Assembly: GCF_009901525.1 (NCBI RefSeq)
Contig: NZ_CP019288.1
Location: forward strand, 5,299,501 to 5,363,500
Origin: Kordia antarctica
GTDB lineage: Bacteria; Bacteroidota; Bacteroidia; Flavobacteriales; Flavobacteriaceae
Direction: 5' to 3'
Length of the DNA stretch: 64,000 nt
Made by a program: the position numbers and the translations under genes. Below, in pieces: positions 11,746 through 18,352 of the stretch (within the stretch, counting starts at the first letter, position 1; each line of letters starts with the position of its first letter). The notes beneath the pieces are model-generated. The model was not told the DNA's origin, did no database searches, and worked only from the letters and a program-made list of their open reading frames with translations.

Positions 11746-13008
11746 TTGAAACTGAAAAGCATACTTACACTATTCATACTCTTTATTTCCATCAGCGTTC
11801 ACGCGTCTTATATTTTAATTCCGATGGATTCAGACTCACAAAAAGATCACTTAAAAGCCTACGGAATTACCTATTGGTCGCTTGAAAAAAAGATCAAAGT
11901 AAAATGGTTGCTCAATTATCGTGGCGGTTCTTTTTTATTGCCAGCAATTGATGCCATTGAAAAAGAATGTAAAATTCGTGGTGTTTCTTATGAAATCATG
12001 TCAGATGCAAAAACCAACGCCATGTTGGAAGAAATTGCGAGTCCAAGTAAAAATCAAGAAGCTGTAATCTTAGAAAGAGCGCCAAAAGTTGCTGTATATT
12101 CTCCGAAAGGAAATGTGCCTTGGGACGATGCGGTTACAATGGTTTTGACGTATGCGGAAATTCCGTATGAAGTTGTGTATGACGAAGAAGTATTAGCAGA
12201 TGATTTAATTAAATACGATTGGTTGCACTTGCATCATGAAGATTTTACAGGACAATATGGTAAATTTTACGGAATGTATCGTTCGGCACCTTGGTACATT
12301 CGCGAGAAGCAAGACGCAGAAGCATTGGCAAAAAAGTTGGGCTACAGTAAAGTTTCAGAAGAAAAACGCGATGTTGCATTAAAAATTCGTGATTATGTAA
12401 TTGGTGGCGGATTTATCTTTGCAATGTGCAGTGCTACGGATAGTTTTGATATTGCGCTTGCCGCAGAAGGTGTAGATATTTGCGAGCCAATGTTTGATGG
12501 CGATGTTTCGGATAGAAATTATCAAAGTAAAATTGATTATTCTAAAACATTTGCGTTTACAGATTTCGAATTAGAAAGAAGTCCAACAAAATATGAGTTT
12601 TCTTCCATTGATATGACAGCCAAAAGAAGAATTGCGAAAGAAGCAGATTATTTTACATTAATGGACTTTTCGGCAAAATGGGATCCAATTCCAACGATGT
12701 TATGTCAAAATCACACTGCTTTGGTAAAAGCATTCATGGGACAAACCACCAGTTTTGATCGTTCTCAAATAAAACCATCAGTTTTAATATTAGGAGAAAA
12801 CAGAACAAACGGCGAAGGTCGATATATTCACGGAATCAAAGGAAAAGGATTTTTTACTTTTTACGGCGGACACGATCCTGAAGATTATCAACACAGAGTT
12901 GGCGATCCAAAAACGGAATTGGAATTACATCCAAATTCTCCTGGGTATCGATTAATTCTGAACAATATTTTATTTCCAGCAGCTAAAAAGAAGAAGCAAA
13001 AAACTTGA
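11746..13008 (+). CDS. Secreted protein of a Bacteroidota family often labelled 'asparagine synthetase B'
   Basis: The 420-residue protein begins with a signal peptide (SILTLFILFISISVHA, then SYILIPMDSDSQ). From memory, close relatives are widely labelled asparagine synthetase B, but no N-terminal Cys nucleophile or ATP-pyrophosphatase motif is visible. It does show a glutamine-amidotransferase-like stretch, GGGFIFAMCSATDSFD (about residues 220-235), with a Cys in a nucleophile-elbow-like position and the sequence LHLHHEDF earlier. The true function is unknown, perhaps a periplasmic hydrolase or binding protein. The start is a TTG at 11746, because no ATG precedes the signal peptide. The basic tail ends KKKKQKT. 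Confidence 0.6.
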   Translation: MKLKSILTLFILFISISVHASYILIPMDSDSQKDHLKAYGITYWSLEKKIKVKWLLNYRGGSFLLPAIDAIEKECKIRGVSYEIMSDAKTNAMLEEIASPSKNQEAVILERAPKVAVYSPKGNVPWDDAVTMVLTYAEIPYEVVYDEEVLADDLIKYDWLHLHHEDFTGQYGKFYGMYRSAPWYIREKQDAEALAKKLGYSKVSEEKRDVALKIRDYVIGGGFIFAMCSATDSFDIALAAEGVDICEPMFDGDVSDRNYQSKIDYSKTFAFTDFELERSPTKYEFSSIDMTAKRRIAKEADYFTLMDFSAKWDPIPTMLCQNHTALVKAFMGQTTSFDRSQIKPSVLILGENRTNGEGRYIHGIKGKGFFTFYGGHDPEDYQHRVGDPKTELELHPNSPGYRLILNNILFPAAKKKKQKT

Positions 13009-13184
13009 TTTTTTTTTGGTTTATATGTTTAATAGTTTCACAAATTGTTACATTGAGTGAATTTCTGCTAAAGAAATTACTATATAGAAGTAATCATGGC
13101 TCAATATTCATGAATTTCTACGGCATCATGAGTCTATATTTATTTCGTTATCTTGTATCATTACTAATTTTAAAATCATTTATT

Positions 13185-13280
13185 ATGTTAGAAAAATTTA
13201 AACAATTTGAAATTCAAAAGCCAACTTCTATTAATGGAGGCACTGCTACGGATGATTTATGGAAATGGCGAACTAACTAA
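13185..13280 (+). CDS. Double-glycine leader peptide, type A copy 1
   Basis: The 31-residue peptide starts MLEKFKQFEI, reaches a GG at residues 18-19 (SINGG) and ends in a 12-residue core, TATDDLWKWRTN. A hydrophobic helical leader ending in GG is the pattern cut by C39 peptidase-containing ABC exporters. A longer upstream in-frame extension exists, but the ATG at 13185 is chosen because the same start, leader and upstream stretch (ACTAATTT...TTTATT) recur at 14623. The core has no Cys and only two Thr, so it is an unlikely lanthipeptide and may be a signal. First gene of the peptide array. Confidence 0.7.
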   Translation: MLEKFKQFEIQKPTSINGGTATDDLWKWRTN

Positions 13281-13365
13281 CTATTTTACTAGCAAAATTA
13301 AGTCGATGTTGGTAGCTTCGCTTTTCTTTTGCACTTTATTTCCATAACTACTGTTTAAATGTTAA

Positions 13366-13410
13366 TTACGGTGTTACCGTAAGTGGTTAATTGGTTGTTT
13401 TTATAATTTG
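13366..13410 (+). promoter_or_regulatory. Palindrome and promoter of peptide gene 2 (copy 1)
   Basis: The 17-bp palindrome TTACGGT-gtt-ACCGTAA occupies 13366-13382. A -7-like TATAATTTG ends at 13410, 24 nt before the ATG. The palindrome centre falls near -42 relative to the inferred start of transcription, where an activator would sit. Confidence 0.65.
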
Positions 13411-13433
13411 GTTTCTAATCAAAACTTTATACC

Positions 13434-13610
13434 ATGAAAAAAAAGAATCTTAAATCTTTGAGACTTAAAAAATGTACTATTACTAAACTTGATAAAAGTT
13501 ATATAAATGGAGGAGGCTCTTGGGTTTGCTCATGGATTTGCACATTTGTCTGTTCCGATGGATGTGAACCTACTAATCCCAATCCCAATCCTAATAATAC
13601 AGAGAAGTAG
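13434..13610 (+). CDS. Lanthipeptide-type precursor with GG leader (type C)
   Basis: The 58-residue peptide has a basic leader, MKKKNLKSLRLKKCTITKL, of the kind found on class I lanthipeptide or 'natural product precursor' families of Bacteroidota. GGG at residues 26-28 is followed by a core with four Cys and several Ser/Thr (SWVCSWICTFVCSDGCEPT) and an Asn-Pro tail. The Cys and Ser/Thr are suited to thioether or disulfide crosslinks. No LanB/LanC, radical-SAM or C39 exporter gene is nearby, so the modifying enzymes must lie elsewhere or do not exist. It has its own palindrome, promoter and terminator. The final product is unknown. Confidence 0.75.
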   Translation: MKKKNLKSLRLKKCTITKLDKSYINGGGSWVCSWICTFVCSDGCEPTNPNPNPNNTEK

Positions 13611-13621
13611 GTTTAATTTAT

Positions 13622-13647
13622 AAGCGAACTTCGCTTCGCTTTTTTTT
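13622..13647 (+). terminator. Terminator of peptide gene 2
   Basis: AAGCGAA (13622-13628) pairs with TTCGCTT (13635-13641) and a T-run follows. Closely related stems end other genes of the array. Confidence 0.8.
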
Positions 13648-13682
13648 GCACTTTATTTCCATAACTACTGTTTTAATGTTAA

Positions 13683-13728
13683 TTAAGGTAAAACCGTAAT
13701 TGGTTCATAATTCGTTGTGCTATATTTT
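13683..13728 (+). promoter_or_regulatory. Palindrome and promoter of peptide gene 3 (copy 2)
   Basis: TTAAGGT-aaa-ACCGTAA (13683-13699) has one mismatch from the perfect palindrome. The -7-like TATATTTT (13721-13728) ends 24 nt before the ATG, exactly as in copies 1 and 4. Confidence 0.6.
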
Positions 13729-13751
13729 CTTCCTAATTAAAAATTCATATC

Positions 13752-13904
13752 ATGTTAAAAAACATTCTAAAACTCGAAGGAGTTCAATTATTGAGTAAAA
13801 AGGAGCAAATAGCATTGAAAGGTGGACACGATTGTCAATGTGATGGTCCTGACAATGAGTATCTATGGGAGACTCCTTGTAATGACACCTTAATTGGATG
13901 TTAA
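13752..13904 (+). CDS. Cys-containing GG-leader peptide (type B, copy 1)
   Basis: This 50-residue peptide has the leader MLKNILKLEGVQLLSKKEQI and GG at residues 24-25, then a 25-residue core (HDCQCDGPDNEYLWETPC and on to a terminal Cys) with four Cys. The leader matches the peptide at 15055 (MLKNILNIEGLKELNKKTQ) while the cores differ. Conserved leader with variable core is typical of bacteriocin or RiPP precursor families. The even number of Cys allows two disulfides or thioethers. It has its own palindrome, promoter and hairpin terminator. Confidence 0.72.
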   Translation: MLKNILKLEGVQLLSKKEQIALKGGHDCQCDGPDNEYLWETPCNDTLIGC

Positions 13905-13908
13905 CTTT

Positions 13909-13936
13909 AAAGCGAACTTCGGTTCGCTTTTCTTTT
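13909..13936 (+). terminator. Terminator of peptide gene 3
   Basis: AAAGCGAA (13909-13916) pairs with TTCGCTTT (13923-13930), followed by a T-rich stretch. Confidence 0.8.
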
Positions 13937-14014
13937 CCCCTTCTTTTTCATAACTACTGTTTAAATGTTTTCCCGCTTTTTTTATTGTTAGTAGGCTTAT
14001 CAATAAATTCGAAT

Positions 14015-14149
14015 ATGTCCGTACTGTTTTTTATTATTGGTGGCTCTATATTATTAATAGCTAAAGTGAATAGAAAAGATAAAGTCTTTATGGGTATACT
14101 TGGTATGCTTATAGTTATATTTTCTATCATTTCAATCTTTAAACCTTAA
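14015..14149 (+). CDS. Small membrane protein inside the peptide array
   Basis: From the ATG at 14015 this encodes 44 residues with two membrane helices, SVLFFIIGGSILLIA and GILGMLIVIFSIISI, joined by a basic turn, KVNRKDK. The frame is open further upstream; a TTG at 13985 would add part of a third hydrophobic segment. The region before about 13940 is the terminator of peptide gene 3, so a start there is unlikely. Small hydrophobic proteins next to bacteriocin-type genes often give immunity or assist export. That is a guess from position alone. Confidence 0.45.
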   Translation: MSVLFFIIGGSILLIAKVNRKDKVFMGILGMLIVIFSIISIFKP

Positions 14150-14216
14150 CTACAGTTTTATATTGGGTGTTTTCCCTCTTGTATTATATTCTTTTTTTTA
14201 ATCTCTTTGTACTATC

Positions 14217-14351
14217 ATGAGCAGATATAGAAAGAAATTATCAGATAGAGTTCTCAATGGGTATAGTCGCAAAACTTTGTTTTGGACATATTTCTTTATC
14301 ATAGGATTCATTGTTGCAATTATATTGACAGCTTATCTTTACAATTCATAA
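14217..14351 (+). CDS. Single-helix small membrane protein
   Basis: This 44-residue frame begins MSRYRKKLSDRVLNGYSRK, strongly basic, followed by one membrane helix (TLFWTYFFIIGFIVAIILTA) and a short tail, YLYNS. The positive-inside rule puts the basic end in the cytoplasm. It follows the 14015 gene by 67 nt. Together they are the only non-precursor candidates between the peptide genes, so an immunity or helper role is possible but unproven. The protein is not recognised. Confidence 0.45.
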   Translation: MSRYRKKLSDRVLNGYSRKTLFWTYFFIIGFIVAIILTAYLYNS

Positions 14352-14371
14352 TTCAATTGTCTAAACGTCAC

Positions 14372-14388
14372 TTACGGTCTTACCTAAG
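14372..14388 (+). promoter_or_regulatory. Orphan palindrome (copy 3)
   Basis: TTACGGT-ctt-ACCTAAG keeps the palindrome with one mismatch, and a TTATTTTTC box follows. At the place where other copies have an ATG the sequence reads TTTTAGAA, and no GG-peptide frame follows up to 14622. It looks like the remains of a further cassette. Confidence 0.5.
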
Positions 14389-14622
14389 GAGTACATACAT
14401 TATTTTTCTTAGTTAAAAAACACATTTTAGAATTTAAGCATTTTTAAAAATTTTTTTTGAATTTTGAATAAGATTTAGCGGATCACTTTTAGAGAAACAC
14501 ATCTGTCTAGAAATCAACAATCATTTTACTAGCATAAATCAGCCAATTTGGGGCAACTTCTGTTTTAAGTTAGTTGATTTATTGGTAGTTTTATTTTATT
14601 ACTAATTTAAAAATCATTTATT

Positions 14623-14718
14623 ATGTTAGAAAAATTTAAACAGTTTGAAATCTCAATACCAAATTCTATTAATGGAGGCACAGCCACGGATGATTTAGCG
14701 AAATGGCGAAAGAACTAA
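14623..14718 (+). CDS. Double-glycine leader peptide, type A copy 2
   Basis: The 31-residue peptide is nearly the same as the one at 13185: leader MLEKFKQFEI, SINGG at 15-19 and core TATDDLAKWRKN (TATDDLWKWRTN in copy 1). Two Trp/Ala and Thr/Lys exchanges lie in the core and several changes in the leader centre. Keeping TATDDL-KWR while the middle of the leader drifts suggests selection on the core. No palindrome precedes the type A genes; the shared upstream stretch ATTACTAATTT-AAAATCATTTATT takes its place. A UUCG hairpin follows. Confidence 0.7.
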   Translation: MLEKFKQFEISIPNSINGGTATDDLAKWRKN

Positions 14719-14733
14719 TTATTGTACTACTTC

Positions 14734-14757
14734 AAGAGGCTTCGGTCTCTTTTTTTA
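14734..14757 (+). terminator. UUCG-loop terminator after the second type A peptide
   Basis: AAGAGGC (14734-14740), loop TTCG, GTCTCTT (14745-14751) with one G-T pair, then T-rich sequence to 14757. Confidence 0.75.
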
Positions 14758-14828
14758 TAACTACTGTTTTGTTGGTGTATACTTATTTTACCAACGTGTT
14801 TCATTATTAATTTAAAAATCAATTTATT

Positions 14829-14930
14829 AAGTTAGAAAAATTAGAGAAATTTCAAATCGAGAATCCACAAGTTATTTATGGCGGAAGTGGAATTAGAAGA
14901 ATTGAACTTATAGGAGCTATATATCCCTAA
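14829..14930 (+). pseudogene. GG-leader peptide gene with lost start codon
   Basis: The frame reads LEKLEKFQIENPQVIYGG and then SGIRRIELIGAIYP, clearly a type A-like leader ending in GG. Where the two type A genes have TTTATTATG, this one has TTTATTAAG, so the ATG has become AAG. The only nearby substitute is an ATT at 14826, a poor start codon. The terminator is intact. The gene is either newly silenced or translated weakly from ATT. The core is hydrophobic and unlike the others. Confidence 0.55.
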
Positions 14931-14934
14931 GTTC

Positions 14935-14959
14935 AAGCGAACTTCTGTTCGCTTTTCTT
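14935..14959 (+). terminator. Terminator after the start-less peptide gene
   Basis: AAGCGAA (14935-14941) pairs with TTCGCTT (14948-14954), then a T-rich stretch. It has the same stem as the terminator at 13622. Confidence 0.75.
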
Positions 14960-14985
14960 CATAATTTCTAAAGTTTAAGTGTTAA

Positions 14986-15031
14986 TTACGGTAATACCGT
15001 AAGTATATTTCATCATTTTATAGTAAGTTTA
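14986..15031 (+). promoter_or_regulatory. Palindrome and promoter of peptide gene 15055 (copy 4)
   Basis: The perfect palindrome TTACGGT-aat-ACCGTAA lies at 14986-15002. The -7-like TAAGTTTA (15024-15031) ends 24 nt before the ATG, as in copies 1 and 2. Confidence 0.65.
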
Positions 15032-15054
15032 TTCTTTAACCAAAACTTTATATC

Positions 15055-15213
15055 ATGTTAAAAAACATTTTAAACATCGAAGGATTAAAAGAGTTAAACA
15101 AAAAAACTCAAACAACTATTGTTGGAGGTGTATGGCATTGCGGTCCTGATTGTGCTTGTCCAGAAGATTATACTTGTGTGGGTAGCTATTGTAGACTCTT
15201 TGTTCCAGAATGA
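15055..15213 (+). CDS. Cys-rich GG-leader peptide (type B, copy 2)
   Basis: This 52-residue peptide has the leader MLKNILNIEGLKELNKKTQ and GG at residues 24-25, then a 27-residue core with five Cys (VWHCGPDCACPEDYTCVGSY, then C and RLFVPE). The leader is shared with the peptide at 13752 but the core is not, apart from a similar C-GPD-C arrangement. An odd Cys number may mean one free thiol, dimerisation or a modified residue. A strong UUCG-loop terminator ends the unit and the array. The function is unknown; antimicrobial, signalling or redox roles are all possible. Confidence 0.72.
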   Translation: MLKNILNIEGLKELNKKTQTTIVGGVWHCGPDCACPEDYTCVGSYCRLFVPE

Positions 15214-15220
15214 ATTTAAT

Positions 15221-15246
15221 AAGCGATCTTCGGATCGCTTTTTTTG
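15221..15246 (+). terminator. UUCG-loop terminator ending the peptide array
   Basis: AAGCGATC (15221-15228), loop TTCG, GATCGCTT (15233-15240), then T-run. It is a perfect 8-bp stem. Confidence 0.9.
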
Positions 15247-15364
15247 GTATTGAATAAGCTTTTTAATTTTGGAAAGACCAAAATCTAAAAATATCTAATA
15301 TAGAACAAGGAATACTGAATGTAAAAGTTTATTTTCCTAATTCCTAATTCCTAACACCCAAAAC

Positions 15365-17710
15365 CTAGCTATTCCCCGTAGTCAATAAATACAAAATTTC
15401 ATTAATAGATTTCGCGCTAATAGGTTTTGTGACGTAATAATTAACGCCAGCTTCTTCTGCTTTTTGACGTGATTCTGGAAAAACATCTGCTGAACAAGCG
15501 ACAATAGGAATATTTTTTTTAACATCGGAGTCCAATGCCCTAATTGCCGAAGTTGCTTCCAATCCGTCTAAAACAGGCATTTGAATGTCCATCAAAATCA
15601 AATCGAAATCTTGTGTTTTTACAATTTCAACAGCTTCTTGACCATTTTCCACAATTGTAGTTTCAGCGTCCCACTTTTTTAATAATTGCTTGATAAATAG
15701 TTGATTCAGTTTATTATCTTCTGCAACTAAAATCTTCTTATTTCGAAGATTATGATTGACATCTTGTGTGTTTTGAAGTTCCAAATCGCTCAAATTACTA
15801 ACTGTGTAGTTGACGTCAAAACTGAACACAGTTCCAACATTTAATTCACTTTTCACCATTAATTCTCCACCTAAAAGTGTCACCAATTCTTTTGTAATGC
15901 TCAATCCTAAACCAGTTCCTTCAGGTTTTTCATCACTGTGATGCGATTGATAGAAACTTTCAAAAATTGTCTGTAAGTTATCTTTTGAAATTCCATTGCC
16001 AGAATCTTCAATAGTAAAGTATACTTGTATAGTTTTATTGGCTAATTCTTTGGCAGTAATATGAACATTAATGAAGCCTTTTTGGGTGAATTTAATTGCG
16101 TTTCCGATCAAATTATTCAAAATCTGACTCAATCTATATTGATCACCAACGACATATTTTGGAATTGAATTCATGATATTCATTGAAAAATCCAGTCCTT
16201 TTTCTTCTGCTTTTAATTTGAATCCTTTATTTAAGTTGTAAATAAGCTCTGTAAAATTAAAATCGACCTTTTGTACATTCAATTTTCCAGCTTCAATCTT
16301 AGAAAAATCGAGAATATCGTTGACAATCATCAGCAAATTTTCCGTTGAAAAACGAATCGCTTCAATATTTTCATATTCTGATTCGCTTCCTGTAAAGTCT
16401 TTATTGTTGAATAATTCCGACAAACCAAGAATGACATTCAACGGCGTTCGAATTTCGTGACTCATATTTGATAAAAAAGTAGTCTTCGCTTTTGCCGATT
16501 TCTCTGCAATAATACGCGCTTCTTCAATCCGAATCATGTTTCGAATATCTTTTGTAATGTCTCGAATTACGGAGAAAAACAACATTTTATTGTTGATATA
16601 AACTGGACTAATTTTTAAATTGTAATAATTGAGTTCGCCATTTTTATAAATTTCAAACTCAAATAATTCTTTTTCTAAGCTCGAAATCGTTTTTAAAGAG
16701 AAATTATTAATAATTGTTCTTAGTCTTTTGGAGAATTGTTCTGGTAAAAGTTTATAAAAATTGAGCTGTTTTTCGTTTGCATTGATGAATTCTGCTGCTT
16801 TTTTATTAGATCGAATAATGATTCCTTCAATATTAAAAATCACATTTGCGTCTAGTGAATTGTGAATTACGGCAGAATATAGCTTTTCATTATTTTCCAG
16901 CTCTTCTTGAATTTGTGACTTTTGAAAAACCTCTTTACTAAGTTTTGAGTTGATATCTTCCAAACTCGAAATTTGCGTTTTTAGTAAACGATGCAATTGT
17001 CCTTTACTTGGGAGATTTGCATTTTCTGTAACCAATAATTGTTCAGGCACTAAATTTACCGTAATTGTGAAGTTTTCGAGTAAGTTATAATTACTGAAAT
17101 GTGTGTTGTAAGCGTTATTATAAATGCTTAACATTGCGTTTAGACCTAAGCTTTCTTGAATCTTTTTCTGAATCAAGTTTGAATATTCAAAGAGTTCTTT
17201 TAAAGTAGAAGCCGCTTGTTGCTGTGTAATGGTTTCAAATGAGATAGGCGTATTTACTAATAAATTTTCTGCTTCTATCAAAAAAGGATTGCTAAAGTTG
17301 CCCAGTAAATCTTTGGATTTTATTAAAACATCTTTTAAAAATAGTTCAGAAAGAATTATTTTTTGCGTGTTATTGTCTTCAATAAAGATGGTTCGTAACT
17401 CATCTTTTTCATCAAGTAATGGATACGATTCTTTTATGTTCTGTCTGAAGAGTAATGTATCAAAATTTGCATTCGGTTGAAGCGATAAAAAATCTTCTAC
17501 CTCTAAATACAAACTTGGAAAACTATCGCGTTTGTGTGCATCTGACATTGTGTCAAATGTTTTCAATTTAGCACTCAATTCGTAATGCACATAATAGTTC
17601 TTTAGTTGAACTTTTAAATTTTCAATCACGATTAAAATAGTTGCGTCTAAAGATGTGTTCGGACTTATAAAGTCTTCTTTTACAGTGTTTTTTTTGTTGA
17701 AAGAGGACAT
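15365..17710 (-). CDS. Soluble hybrid histidine kinase/response regulator
   Basis: The 781-residue protein has no membrane segment or signal peptide. About 250 N-terminal residues are a helical region of unknown type. A coiled coil and a PAS domain (about 275-395, NSLDANVIFNIEGIIIRSNKKAAEF) follow. The kinase core shows the H-box FLSNMSHEIRTPLNVILG, N-box NNLIGNAIKFT, and G-boxes EDSGNGIS and GTGLGLSI. A C-terminal receiver domain (ILVAEDNKLNQLF, phospho-Asp in LILMDIQMPVLDG, CSADVF, YVTKPIS) completes it. It probably senses a cytoplasmic signal and passes phosphate to an HPt or separate regulator, none of which is nearby. It faces the end of the peptide array, so the two are not cotranscribed. 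Confidence 0.9.
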   Translation of the reverse strand: MSSFNKKNTVKEDFISPNTSLDATILIVIENLKVQLKNYYVHYELSAKLKTFDTMSDAHKRDSFPSLYLEVEDFLSLQPNANFDTLLFRQNIKESYPLLDEKDELRTIFIEDNNTQKIILSELFLKDVLIKSKDLLGNFSNPFLIEAENLLVNTPISFETITQQQAASTLKELFEYSNLIQKKIQESLGLNAMLSIYNNAYNTHFSNYNLLENFTITVNLVPEQLLVTENANLPSKGQLHRLLKTQISSLEDINSKLSKEVFQKSQIQEELENNEKLYSAVIHNSLDANVIFNIEGIIIRSNKKAAEFINANEKQLNFYKLLPEQFSKRLRTIINNFSLKTISSLEKELFEFEIYKNGELNYYNLKISPVYINNKMLFFSVIRDITKDIRNMIRIEEARIIAEKSAKAKTTFLSNMSHEIRTPLNVILGLSELFNNKDFTGSESEYENIEAIRFSTENLLMIVNDILDFSKIEAGKLNVQKVDFNFTELIYNLNKGFKLKAEEKGLDFSMNIMNSIPKYVVGDQYRLSQILNNLIGNAIKFTQKGFINVHITAKELANKTIQVYFTIEDSGNGISKDNLQTIFESFYQSHHSDEKPEGTGLGLSITKELVTLLGGELMVKSELNVGTVFSFDVNYTVSNLSDLELQNTQDVNHNLRNKKILVAEDNKLNQLFIKQLLKKWDAETTIVENGQEAVEIVKTQDFDLILMDIQMPVLDGLEATSAIRALDSDVKKNIPIVACSADVFPESRQKAEEAGVNYYVTKPISAKSINEILYLLTTGNS

Positions 17711-18079: not shown

Positions 18080-18352
18080 TTAGTAAGGAAGTATTTCTTG
18101 ATTTGCCGCAGAAGGGAAAACATTAATCCCTTGTGTCGTAAATACTAATGTTGACCAAGAATTAACACCTTCATGCAAACTTAATTTCACAAGGTTTCCA
18201 TTAATTGTTGTTGTGATTTCTTCACCTTTTTTAAAAGTATGACCGGTAGATTGATCTCCTTCTACAGGAACTTTGATTGTTTTTCCATCAACTGTTGTTG
18301 TTAAAGCTCCGCCTGAAATGTTTACTACATTAAAAAAATTGTTTGATGCCAT
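18080..18352 (-). CDS. Small hypothetical soluble protein
   Basis: The 90-residue protein starts MASNNFFNVVNISGG and is rich in Thr, Val and Gly with alternating beta-strand character (ALTTTVDGKTIKVPVEG, EEITTTINGNLVKLSL). It has no signal peptide and no Cys. It is not recognised. The compact all-beta look suggests a small barrel. It has its own terminator, identical to that of the ribosomal protein operon next to it, but there is no functional link with its neighbours. Confidence 0.65.
   Translation of the reverse strand: MASNNFFNVVNISGGALTTTVDGKTIKVPVEGDQSTGHTFKKGEEITTTINGNLVKLSLHEGVNSWSTLVFTTQGINVFPSAANQEILPY

Follow-up and report, generated by a model that had tools for sequence, protein, structure and literature searches.

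A cluster of small genes in Kordia antarctica, each encoding a peptide whose leader ends in a double glycine (GG), is probably one node of a secreted-peptide repertoire that spans the chromosome and is served in trans. The cluster lies in a stretch of 64 kb (hereafter, the window), which corresponds to positions 5299501-5363500 of the complete, single-contig genome of 5.50 Mb. Profile searches of this 5.5-Mb genome recovered at least 171 related small genes with three types of leader: at least 132 of type T2, 34 of type T3 and five of type T1. A palindrome, here termed the operator, stands at a fixed distance from the -7 box of many T2 and T3 promoters, and a single LanB is detectable in the genome.

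The array in the window

The array comprises five complete genes with GG leaders, one copy that lacks a start codon, an orphan promoter and four hairpins with an AAGCGA stem. Its elements are the following (positions in the window; aa, amino acids; scores are those of the composite operator matrix described below):

13185..13280, plus strand: T1 gene, 31 aa, GG leader, 12-aa Cys-free core TATDDLWKWRTN; without operator
13367..13381, plus strand: operator 1, TACGGTGTTACCGTA (perfect), centred 60 bp 5' of the ATG at 13434; leave-one-out score 45.6
13404-13409, plus strand: -7 box TAATTT of operator 1
13434..13610, plus strand: T2 gene for a lanthipeptide-like precursor, 58 aa, LxLxKx5L leader, GG, core with Cys, Ser and Thr
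13622..13641, plus strand: terminator-like hairpin AAGCGA...TCGCTT with a T-run
13684..13698, plus strand: operator 2, TAAGGTAAAACCGTA, centred 61 bp 5' of the ATG at 13752; leave-one-out score 38.0
13752..13904, plus strand: T3 gene, 50 aa, leader MLKNILKLEGVQLLSKKEQIALKGG, core with Cys
13910..13929, plus strand: terminator-like hairpin AAGCGA...TCGCTT
14373..14387, plus strand: orphan degenerate operator TACGGTCTTACCTAA, two mismatches to the operator, composite score 9.9, no cassette directly 3'; a probable remnant
14623..14718, plus strand: second copy of the T1 gene, 31 aa, core TATDDLAKWRKN; without operator
14829..14930, plus strand: T1 pseudogene-like frame, without start codon, opening on an AAG codon
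14935..14954, plus strand: terminator-like hairpin AAGCGA...TCGCTT, 3' of the start-less frame
14987..15001, plus strand: operator 3, TACGGTAATACCGTA (perfect), centred 61 bp 5' of the ATG at 15055; leave-one-out score 36.3
15055..15213, plus strand: T3 gene, 52 aa, leader MLKNILNIEGLKELNKKTQTTIVGG, Cys-rich core
15221..15240, plus strand: terminator-like hairpin AAGCGA...TCGCTT

This layout had largely been described in an initial annotation of the stretch. The genes of 58, 50 and 52 aa that it placed at 13434, 13752 and 15055, as well as the 31-aa near copy at 14623, are present as open reading frames (ORFs). The 31-codon gene at 13185 is also present; the ORF list contains only a longer, TTG-started frame (13005-13280), and the ATG of the gene, which lies inside that frame, was taken from the sequence. 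The gene reported to lack a start at 14829 was recovered as frame 14829-14930, read from an AAG codon, and the orphan promoter near 14372 contains TACGGTCTTACCTAA at 14373-14387. GG ends every leader of the array, as had been noted, and the closely related hairpins number four, the only ones in the 64 kb, each inside the array. The start-less frame has an intact homologue at the same site in another Kordia genome (G001; 77% over 31 columns to L252).

Each of the two T1 genes sits in one copy of a 148-nt direct repeat (84% identity between the copies), and a 69-nt block 5' of the T2 and T3 genes is also repeated, with copies at 88%, 61% and 64% identity. These direct repeats indicate that the array probably grew by duplication.

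A chromosome-wide set of GG-leader genes

Further copies of the leaders, for which the initial annotation had recommended a genome search, were found far beyond the window. Searches with single sequences yielded 83 distinct ORFs; all begin with ATG, and almost every one has a leader of the GG type, even at E ~10. The profile searches raised this figure to the 171 genes or more mentioned above; the number of T2 genes is a lower bound as 150 of 249 candidates were scored, and four matches (2483242, 3340666, 4340417 and 4516967) were removed by eye before counting. Among the 171 genes kept, 169 start with ATG and 167 have an in-register GG, GS, GA or GR junction, and their peptides are probably secreted.

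At a linkage distance of 3 kb, the set falls into 104 loci, one of which is the window array, and 67 loci consist of a single gene. The five T1 genes occupy four loci, each with T2 or T3 cassettes within ~1 kb. T3 leaders (E <= 0.01) were detected in 11 of 11 Kordia genomes, with 12-36 copies each, and in one of 29 other genomes, using a profile built from this genome that may miss remote forms.

Leaders, cores and predicted chemistry

The consensus of the T2 leader, MKKxNLKxLxLNKxxISxL...GG, contains the motif LxLxKx5L. In a relaxed form the motif is present in 130 of 132 T2 peptides (70 have the strict form), in 1 of 34 T3 and in 0 of 5 T1; inspection by eye showed that the T2 peptide of the window carries the strict form. 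Leaders of the LxLxKx5L-GG kind have been reported for class I LanA precursors of Bacteroidetes, often with a C39 protease in the cluster (PMC7268733).

Cores were compared using the 34 T3 peptides and the 128 of 132 T2 peptides whose junction was placed by script. Ser plus Thr equal or outnumber Cys in 125/128 T2 cores but only in 4/34 T3 cores (P = 6e-25), and the number of Cys is even in 62/128 T2 cores compared with 28/34 T3 cores (P = 4e-4). Altogether, the leader motif and the Ser/Thr content of the cores make T2 peptides look like lanthipeptide precursors, while T3 peptides, whose cores are mostly Cys-even and Ser/Thr-poor, are probably disulfide-rich. Comparison of one T3 peptide with solved structures gave no useful match (best E 0.17). 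Among paralogues, leaders remain alike (identity 0.49 in T2 and 0.52 in T3), whereas core identity (0.23 in T2 and 0.25 in T3) is close to that of shuffled cores (0.21 and 0.24, respectively).

The initial annotation had viewed the three leader types, with their different cores, as one system for peptide diversification. The types are indeed present, but a single system does not fit, given that T2 peptides look lanthipeptide-like, T3 peptides are probably disulfide-rich, and a T1 core is conserved between species.

An operator at a fixed distance from the -7 box

The palindrome TACGGTnnTACCGTA, or a close variant, is found ~60 bp 5' of the start codon of T2 and T3 genes and 30 bp from the -7 box. 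All three intact T2 and T3 genes of the window carry the operator, and neither T1 gene does. When upstream regions were scored with a composite matrix under a leave-one-out scheme (score >= 6), the operator was detected in 48 of 171 cassettes, compared with 0.8 in shuffles: 21 of 34 T3, 27 of 132 T2 and 0 of 5 T1. The full matrix gives 50 cassettes; it underlies the -33 and -7 counts below and the scores of the Lan locus and of the orphan operator. In shuffled upstream regions, the 99.9th percentile of the score was 12.3 and the maximum 19.7, while the three window operators reach 45.6, 38.0 and 36.3.

The location of the site is also constrained. The 200 bp preceding the 171 genes contain 50 matches with up to three mismatches, and 44 of these are located 50-79 bp from the ATG; a comparison region made of the genes plus 150 bp behind them contains 13 such matches in 54,972 positions. 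Genome-wide, matches with no more than one mismatch amount to 31+21, against 4+5 for the reversed pattern. Alignment without gaps of 44 sites, chosen for having at most three mismatches and lying at 50-80 bp, revealed T at +30 (95%), A at +31, and T at +34 and +35 (98% each), which is a -7 element at a fixed distance. The -33 region of the 50 operator promoters contains TTTG in 0 cases. A weak -7 box combined with the lack of a TTTG -33 element is typical of activator-dependent promoters, and we infer that the palindrome may be an activator site, with its centre near -42 at the position of a class-II activator. The palindrome does not match the SOS box.

Bacteroidetes -33/-7 promoters were also sought before the cassettes that lack the operator. 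A loose pattern was found in 16 of 121 (9.5 in shuffles) and a stricter one in 4 (1.1 in shuffles), a result that is not decisive.

Other small ORFs were observed near operator-like sites. One, on the minus strand near 788220 (L021 368-526), encodes another GG-leader peptide, MKKLEDFNCEKVEIDSIFGG..., with a Cys-free acidic core, 213 bp behind an operator scoring 31.8. Lipoprotein-like ORFs of the MKKVFLTAV...C...DEEDNRDYDD type lie ~150-180 bp from operator-like sites at 4709737 (L097 1714-1878) and in K. algicida (L218, L219 and L220). Their identity is 30-52%, weak for L218 and L219, and their orientation to the -7 box misfits in some cases; they are perhaps a further family of the regulon.

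The operator as a predictor of GG peptides

Sixteen regions of the genome were fetched solely because they contain a perfect or one-mismatch site, and six of them harbor a previously unmatched GG peptide at 59-67 bp. Four more new GG peptides were detected near operators in loci already fetched.

The operator is enriched in all 10 other Kordia genomes, with 26-72 matches compared with 3-14 for the control. Of 29 genomes outside Kordia, three reach at least twice the control with at least five matches: G013 (6 vs 1), G021 (28 vs 12) and G024 (13 vs 6). A GG peptide was found 60-67 bp behind the site in 16 of 26 cases in G005 (13 of 23 without L211, a locus selected for its three tandem sites), in 7 of 13 in K. 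algicida and in 3 of 10 in other Kordia, while 0 of 23 distinct sites outside Kordia precede one. The set of 77 sites contains four sites twice (L167/L226, L170/L229, L171/L193 and L172/L213), plus L173, which comes from the window genome itself. As controls for this test, random positions of the window scored positive in 78 of 5000 cases (1.6%), and positions that lie 150 bp or more from the sites in the same G005 and G009 loci did so in 45 of 1303 (3.5%).

Two additional observations concern ORFs of other kinds. In L196 (G005) and L177 (G010), a gene whose product (MKKVTLIFTLLITAICFAQN... / MKKTIFLLALFIAGMTFAQN...) is probably secreted starts 65-68 bp behind the palindrome, and is a possible non-peptide member of the regulon. 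Three Kordia genomes share a short ORF, MQYSFRDLGESTIL..., at 64 bp from a perfect palindrome (at 1483125, in L202 of G005 and in L213 of G009); its composite scores in that orientation are poor (-4.9, 6.9 and -3.1), and it may not be a gene.

Modification and export machinery

The initial annotation had placed the enzymes elsewhere in the genome, and LanB, LanC and a C39 exporter were indeed found 1.57 Mb from the window. The genome has a single Lant_dehydr_N (PF04738) match, that is, one LanB, and the same 20-kb stretch (the Lan locus) encodes a separate LanB C-terminal domain, a LanC-like protein, a C39 exporter and an HlyD protein. Given this distance, the window precursors are not encoded beside LanB/LanC; one T2-like frame (3740114), for which no ATG was found, does lie inside the Lan locus. 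LanB shares 95% identity with its counterpart in Kordia aestuariivivens and 87-91% with the others found in Kordia. Most of the protein can be matched to NisB structures, and the exporter matches PCAT and ComA structures. LanC carries WCYG and CHG, which we take to be Zn-ligand motifs, and the exporter carries QxxxxDCG, presumably the C39 active-site motif.

PF03412 (C39) has two strong matches in the genome and a weak one (27.6 bits, cut-off 22). The initial annotation had named the absence of any C39-type exporter as a finding that would refute it, and this does not apply. The second strong match is an exporter encoded inside a radical-SAM locus. The weak match, which begins at profile position 27, belongs to a protein of 519 aa that also contains VKOR and a thioredoxin-like domain (the latter under the Pfam cut-off), and its gene is located directly behind an operator-bearing T3 gene.

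Radical-SAM enzymes were considered as an alternative. TIGR04148, the model of the maturase that partners TIGR04149, has 7 matches in the genome, none of which surpasses 300 bits (best 76), and the three SPASM-type radical-SAM proteins examined best match YhhB/FxsB-type cyclophane maturases, under curated cut-offs. One YhhB/FxsB-like locus (L028 5483-10629) has a small upstream ORF of its own and the second C39 exporter; two more such enzymes are encoded at 1648032 and 1539972.

T2-like peptides were detected near LanB in 20 of 21 fetched loci, an Aminicenantes contig being the exception. Three Aquimarina loci (L108, L111 and L114) also have T3-like peptides close to LanB, and Lacinutrix has a T1-like one. 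These classes were assigned with regular expressions, and on inspection by eye two assignments look wrong, L109 6278 (called T3) and L113 15708 (called T2). Applied to the 61.5 kb of the window outside the array, the expressions matched nothing.

T1 peptides and the history of the site

T1 peptides are short and Cys-free. The gene 5' of the array has one match in each of 11 Kordia genomes, and in 7 of the 11 an intact T1 ORF with a TATDDL core stands behind it. The exceptions include an in-frame stop in G002, another T1 in G004 and no T1 in G003; in G007, the two flanking gene matches are separated by only 12 bp, which leaves no room for the array. In the TATDDL group (nine copies from seven genomes), core identity is 0.84 and leader identity 0.62, bearing in mind that the group was chosen by its core. 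When all 15 T1 peptides are compared, the values are 0.54 for leaders and 0.37 for cores, and the six with other cores have 0.48 and 0.22, respectively. One T1 core is kept at the window site; T1 as a whole is not core-conserved, and is not a general reverse of T2.

At the syntenic site, T2 genes occur in four other Kordia, while T3 genes and operators were found in the window genome and in none of the 10 other Kordia. This distribution suggests that T2/T3 cassettes with operators arrived later, beside an older T1. The T1 of the window site is probably a separate, older occupant that shares just the export signal.

A hybrid kinase (15365-17710; HisKA, HATPase_c, receiver) was considered as a receptor for T1 and is not favoured: G007 has the kinase without room for a T1, and in G002, G005, G006, G008 and G010 the 4.3-4.5 kb that follow the upstream gene gave no match to the kinase, although four of these genomes have a T1 there. 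A 90-aa protein without Pfam match is encoded behind the kinase (18080-18352, minus strand). A similar protein is located between T1 and the kinase in K. algicida (L250 near 639), and this different placement points to local rearrangement of the site.

The stretch between 13008 and 15365 contains no ORF of at least 120 aa, hence it encodes no exporter or oxidoreductase. Two 44-aa membrane-like ORFs inside the array (14015-14149 and 14217-14351) are possible immunity genes or may have arisen by chance; they have no relatives among the fetched loci compared. Two Rfam matches in 12900-15400, far under the gathering score, were judged to be chance.

Comparison with known systems

The initial annotation knew of no described system with this layout; precedents do exist. 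The procA genes are scattered in picocyanobacteria and one ProcM serves them (PMC10783134), and 79 precursors have been reported for one SyncM (PMC12328550). Prochlorosins and synechococsins are like the Kordia peptides in having many scattered precursors with conserved leaders, served there by one lanthionine synthetase (PMC10783134, PMC12328550). The prochlorosin enzyme is, however, a single class II LanM. In Kordia, the LanB/LanC set belongs to class I, the precursors include a second class that is poor in Ser/Thr (T3), and an operator is shared; PMC10783134 does not contain the word 'promoter'. With one LanB, at least 132 T2 genes and 104 loci in all, K. antarctica combines one modification set with many precursors, which that set would serve. 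No Nif11 model was among the matches of six window peptides, and the genome was not searched for LanM.

Class I lanthipeptides of Bacteroidetes share with T2 the LxLxKx5L-GG leader, often with a C39 protease in the cluster (PMC7268733); unlike them, most Kordia T2 genes are away from the sole LanB, which 132 or more precursors would share. Bacteroidetocins are similar to T3 in that they are peptides of Bacteroidetes with a GG leader and Cys; a C39 exporter and a thiol oxidoreductase accompany them. They have leaders of 15-16 residues and four-gene loci, in contrast with the ~25-residue leaders (25 alignment columns) and dispersed genes of T3 (PMC6671954). In Streptococcus pneumoniae, several double-glycine peptides share exporters and are switched on together, but the regulators ComDE and BlpHR are known there and fewer peptides are named (PMC7595303). 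Lastly, Kordia has been presented as an example of Flavobacteriaceae rich in ribosomally synthesized and post-translationally modified peptides (RiPPs), and as many as 176 precursors have been reported for a Bacteroidota genome (PMC11118758); the operator, the split into two chemistries and T1 were not found in main text passages of that source.

Dispersed precursors for one enzyme and RiPP-rich Kordia are thus already known; the operator is new. In the literature searched, which leaves out most subscription journals, nothing was found on the operator, on T1 or on two chemistries that share one site, and queries on a TACGGT palindrome in Flavobacteri, a lanthipeptide operator or regulon, Kordia RiPP promoters and VKOR-bacteriocin links returned nothing relevant.

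Conflicting observations and rival explanations

Several observations weigh against a repertoire of variable peptides under a shared switch. The operator is missing in 123 of 171 cassettes. No site was found in the 300 bp upstream of the LanB/LanC, exporter, AraC-type and sigma genes of the Lan locus (best score, -4.0), so the machinery is not visibly co-regulated with the cassettes. GG peptides at the expected distance are lacking in 10 of the 16 regions fetched from the genome for their site, several of them with a perfect site, and at 23 of 49 sites in other Kordia. In the 50 operator promoters, TTG does occur in the -33 region of 11, and the -7 box is TAnnTT in 48 and full TAnnTTTG in 1. 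T2 cores are not variable everywhere, as four T2 orthologues at the window site in other Kordia have core identity of 0.71 and leader identity of 0.69. The NF038153 leader model, scanned against one of the 132 T2 peptides, that of the window, gives 17.6 bits, under the cut-off of 22; because of this score, T2 peptides are described as lanthipeptide-like and not filed as lanthipeptide members. A TIGR04149 scan that covered two of the 34 T3 peptides, those of the window, gave 19.8 bits (cut-off 25) for the one at 13752, its only NCBIfam match, and the T3 at 15055 has no NCBIfam match. Finally, the link between T3 and VKOR consists of one gene pair.

Some of these data admit other explanations. 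The palindrome might be a repressor site, or a mix of two unrelated TACGGTTTTACCGTA families, instead of one activator site. Perfect palindromes away from GG peptides, the TTG found in part of the -33 regions, the three genomes outside Kordia that reach at least twice the reversed control, and the finding that none of the sites examined outside Kordia precedes a GG peptide, fit this possibility. We consider it unlikely, though not negligible, because the palindrome keeps a constant 30-bp phase relative to a weak -7 box and a TTTG -33 element is lacking. The view that T2 and T3 are handled by different exporters or by unrecognised enzymes, and not by the single Lan locus, has a similar standing: a second strong C39 exporter in a radical-SAM locus and the weak C39-like protein beside a T3 gene speak in its favour, while it is made rather doubtful by the existence of one LanB in the genome and by the company of T2-like and T3-like genes near LanB in the three Aquimarina loci.

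T3 peptides may alternatively be radical-SAM-modified RiPPs of the TIGR04149/TIGR04148 kind. The sole NCBIfam match of the T3 at 13752 and the resemblance of the three SPASM-type proteins to cyclophane maturases, under cut-offs, are compatible with this idea, and Kordia has been described as rich in predicted peptides with such modification (PMC11118758). It is not, however, our first choice and seems fairly unlikely: both TIGR04149 (19.8 of 25 bits) and TIGR04148 (76 of 300) fall under their cut-offs, the even Cys number of most T3 cores fits disulfides, and an operator-bearing T3 gene lies directly 5' of the gene for the VKOR/C39-like/thioredoxin-like protein. That the window array is a decaying relic without present function appears improbable. 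It does hold one start-less copy and one orphan operator, and the syntenic site of the 10 other Kordia lacks operators and T3 genes, has a T1 with an in-frame stop in G002 and offers no room in G007; on the other hand, the array contains five intact genes and three high-scoring operators, and the TATDDL core, by which its group was chosen, is better conserved than the leader.

A tentative model and its implications

A model for the repertoire served in trans can be outlined as follows. A T2 or T3 cassette would be made of a promoter (with operator in part of them), a conserved GG leader, a variable core and often a hairpin terminator. A putative activator would bind the dyad, approximately GTTAAnTACGGTnnnACCGTAnTTAAC, centred near -42, at ~48 dispersed promoters, and a mix of T2 and T3 peptides would be switched on together. 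The single LanB/LanC set would bind T2 precursors via LxLxKx5L and cyclise them to lanthipeptides; T3 precursors would be poor lanthionine substrates, and their Cys residues would be joined in pairs as disulfides with help from the VKOR/thioredoxin protein. C39 exporters would then cut after GG and secrete the cores. Cassettes would multiply by duplication, with paralogue leaders staying alike while cores diverge, and failed copies would persist as orphan operators and start-less genes.

The role of such peptides would most likely be competition between bacteria. A bolder proposal is that one activator fires ~50 dispersed promoters at once, as a genus-wide arsenal of two variable chemistries, and that T1 peptides are secreted signals that couple release to cell density. 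It draws on the presence of such cassettes next to T1 genes at all four T1 loci of the genome and on the T1 core kept between species at the window site. We regard it as a long shot because core conservation is limited to the TATDDL group and is almost matched by that of the T2 orthologues found there.

If the model holds, Kordia would harbor an unusually large natural library of leaders and cores that one class I LanB/LanC set may serve, while the large published cases that we have encountered use class II enzymes. The operator has led to precursors missed by single-sequence leader searches, and could be used as a DNA-affinity bait for the regulator. It makes scattered genes a testable regulon and predicts which peptides are made together; two different peptide chemistries would thus be tied to one switch.

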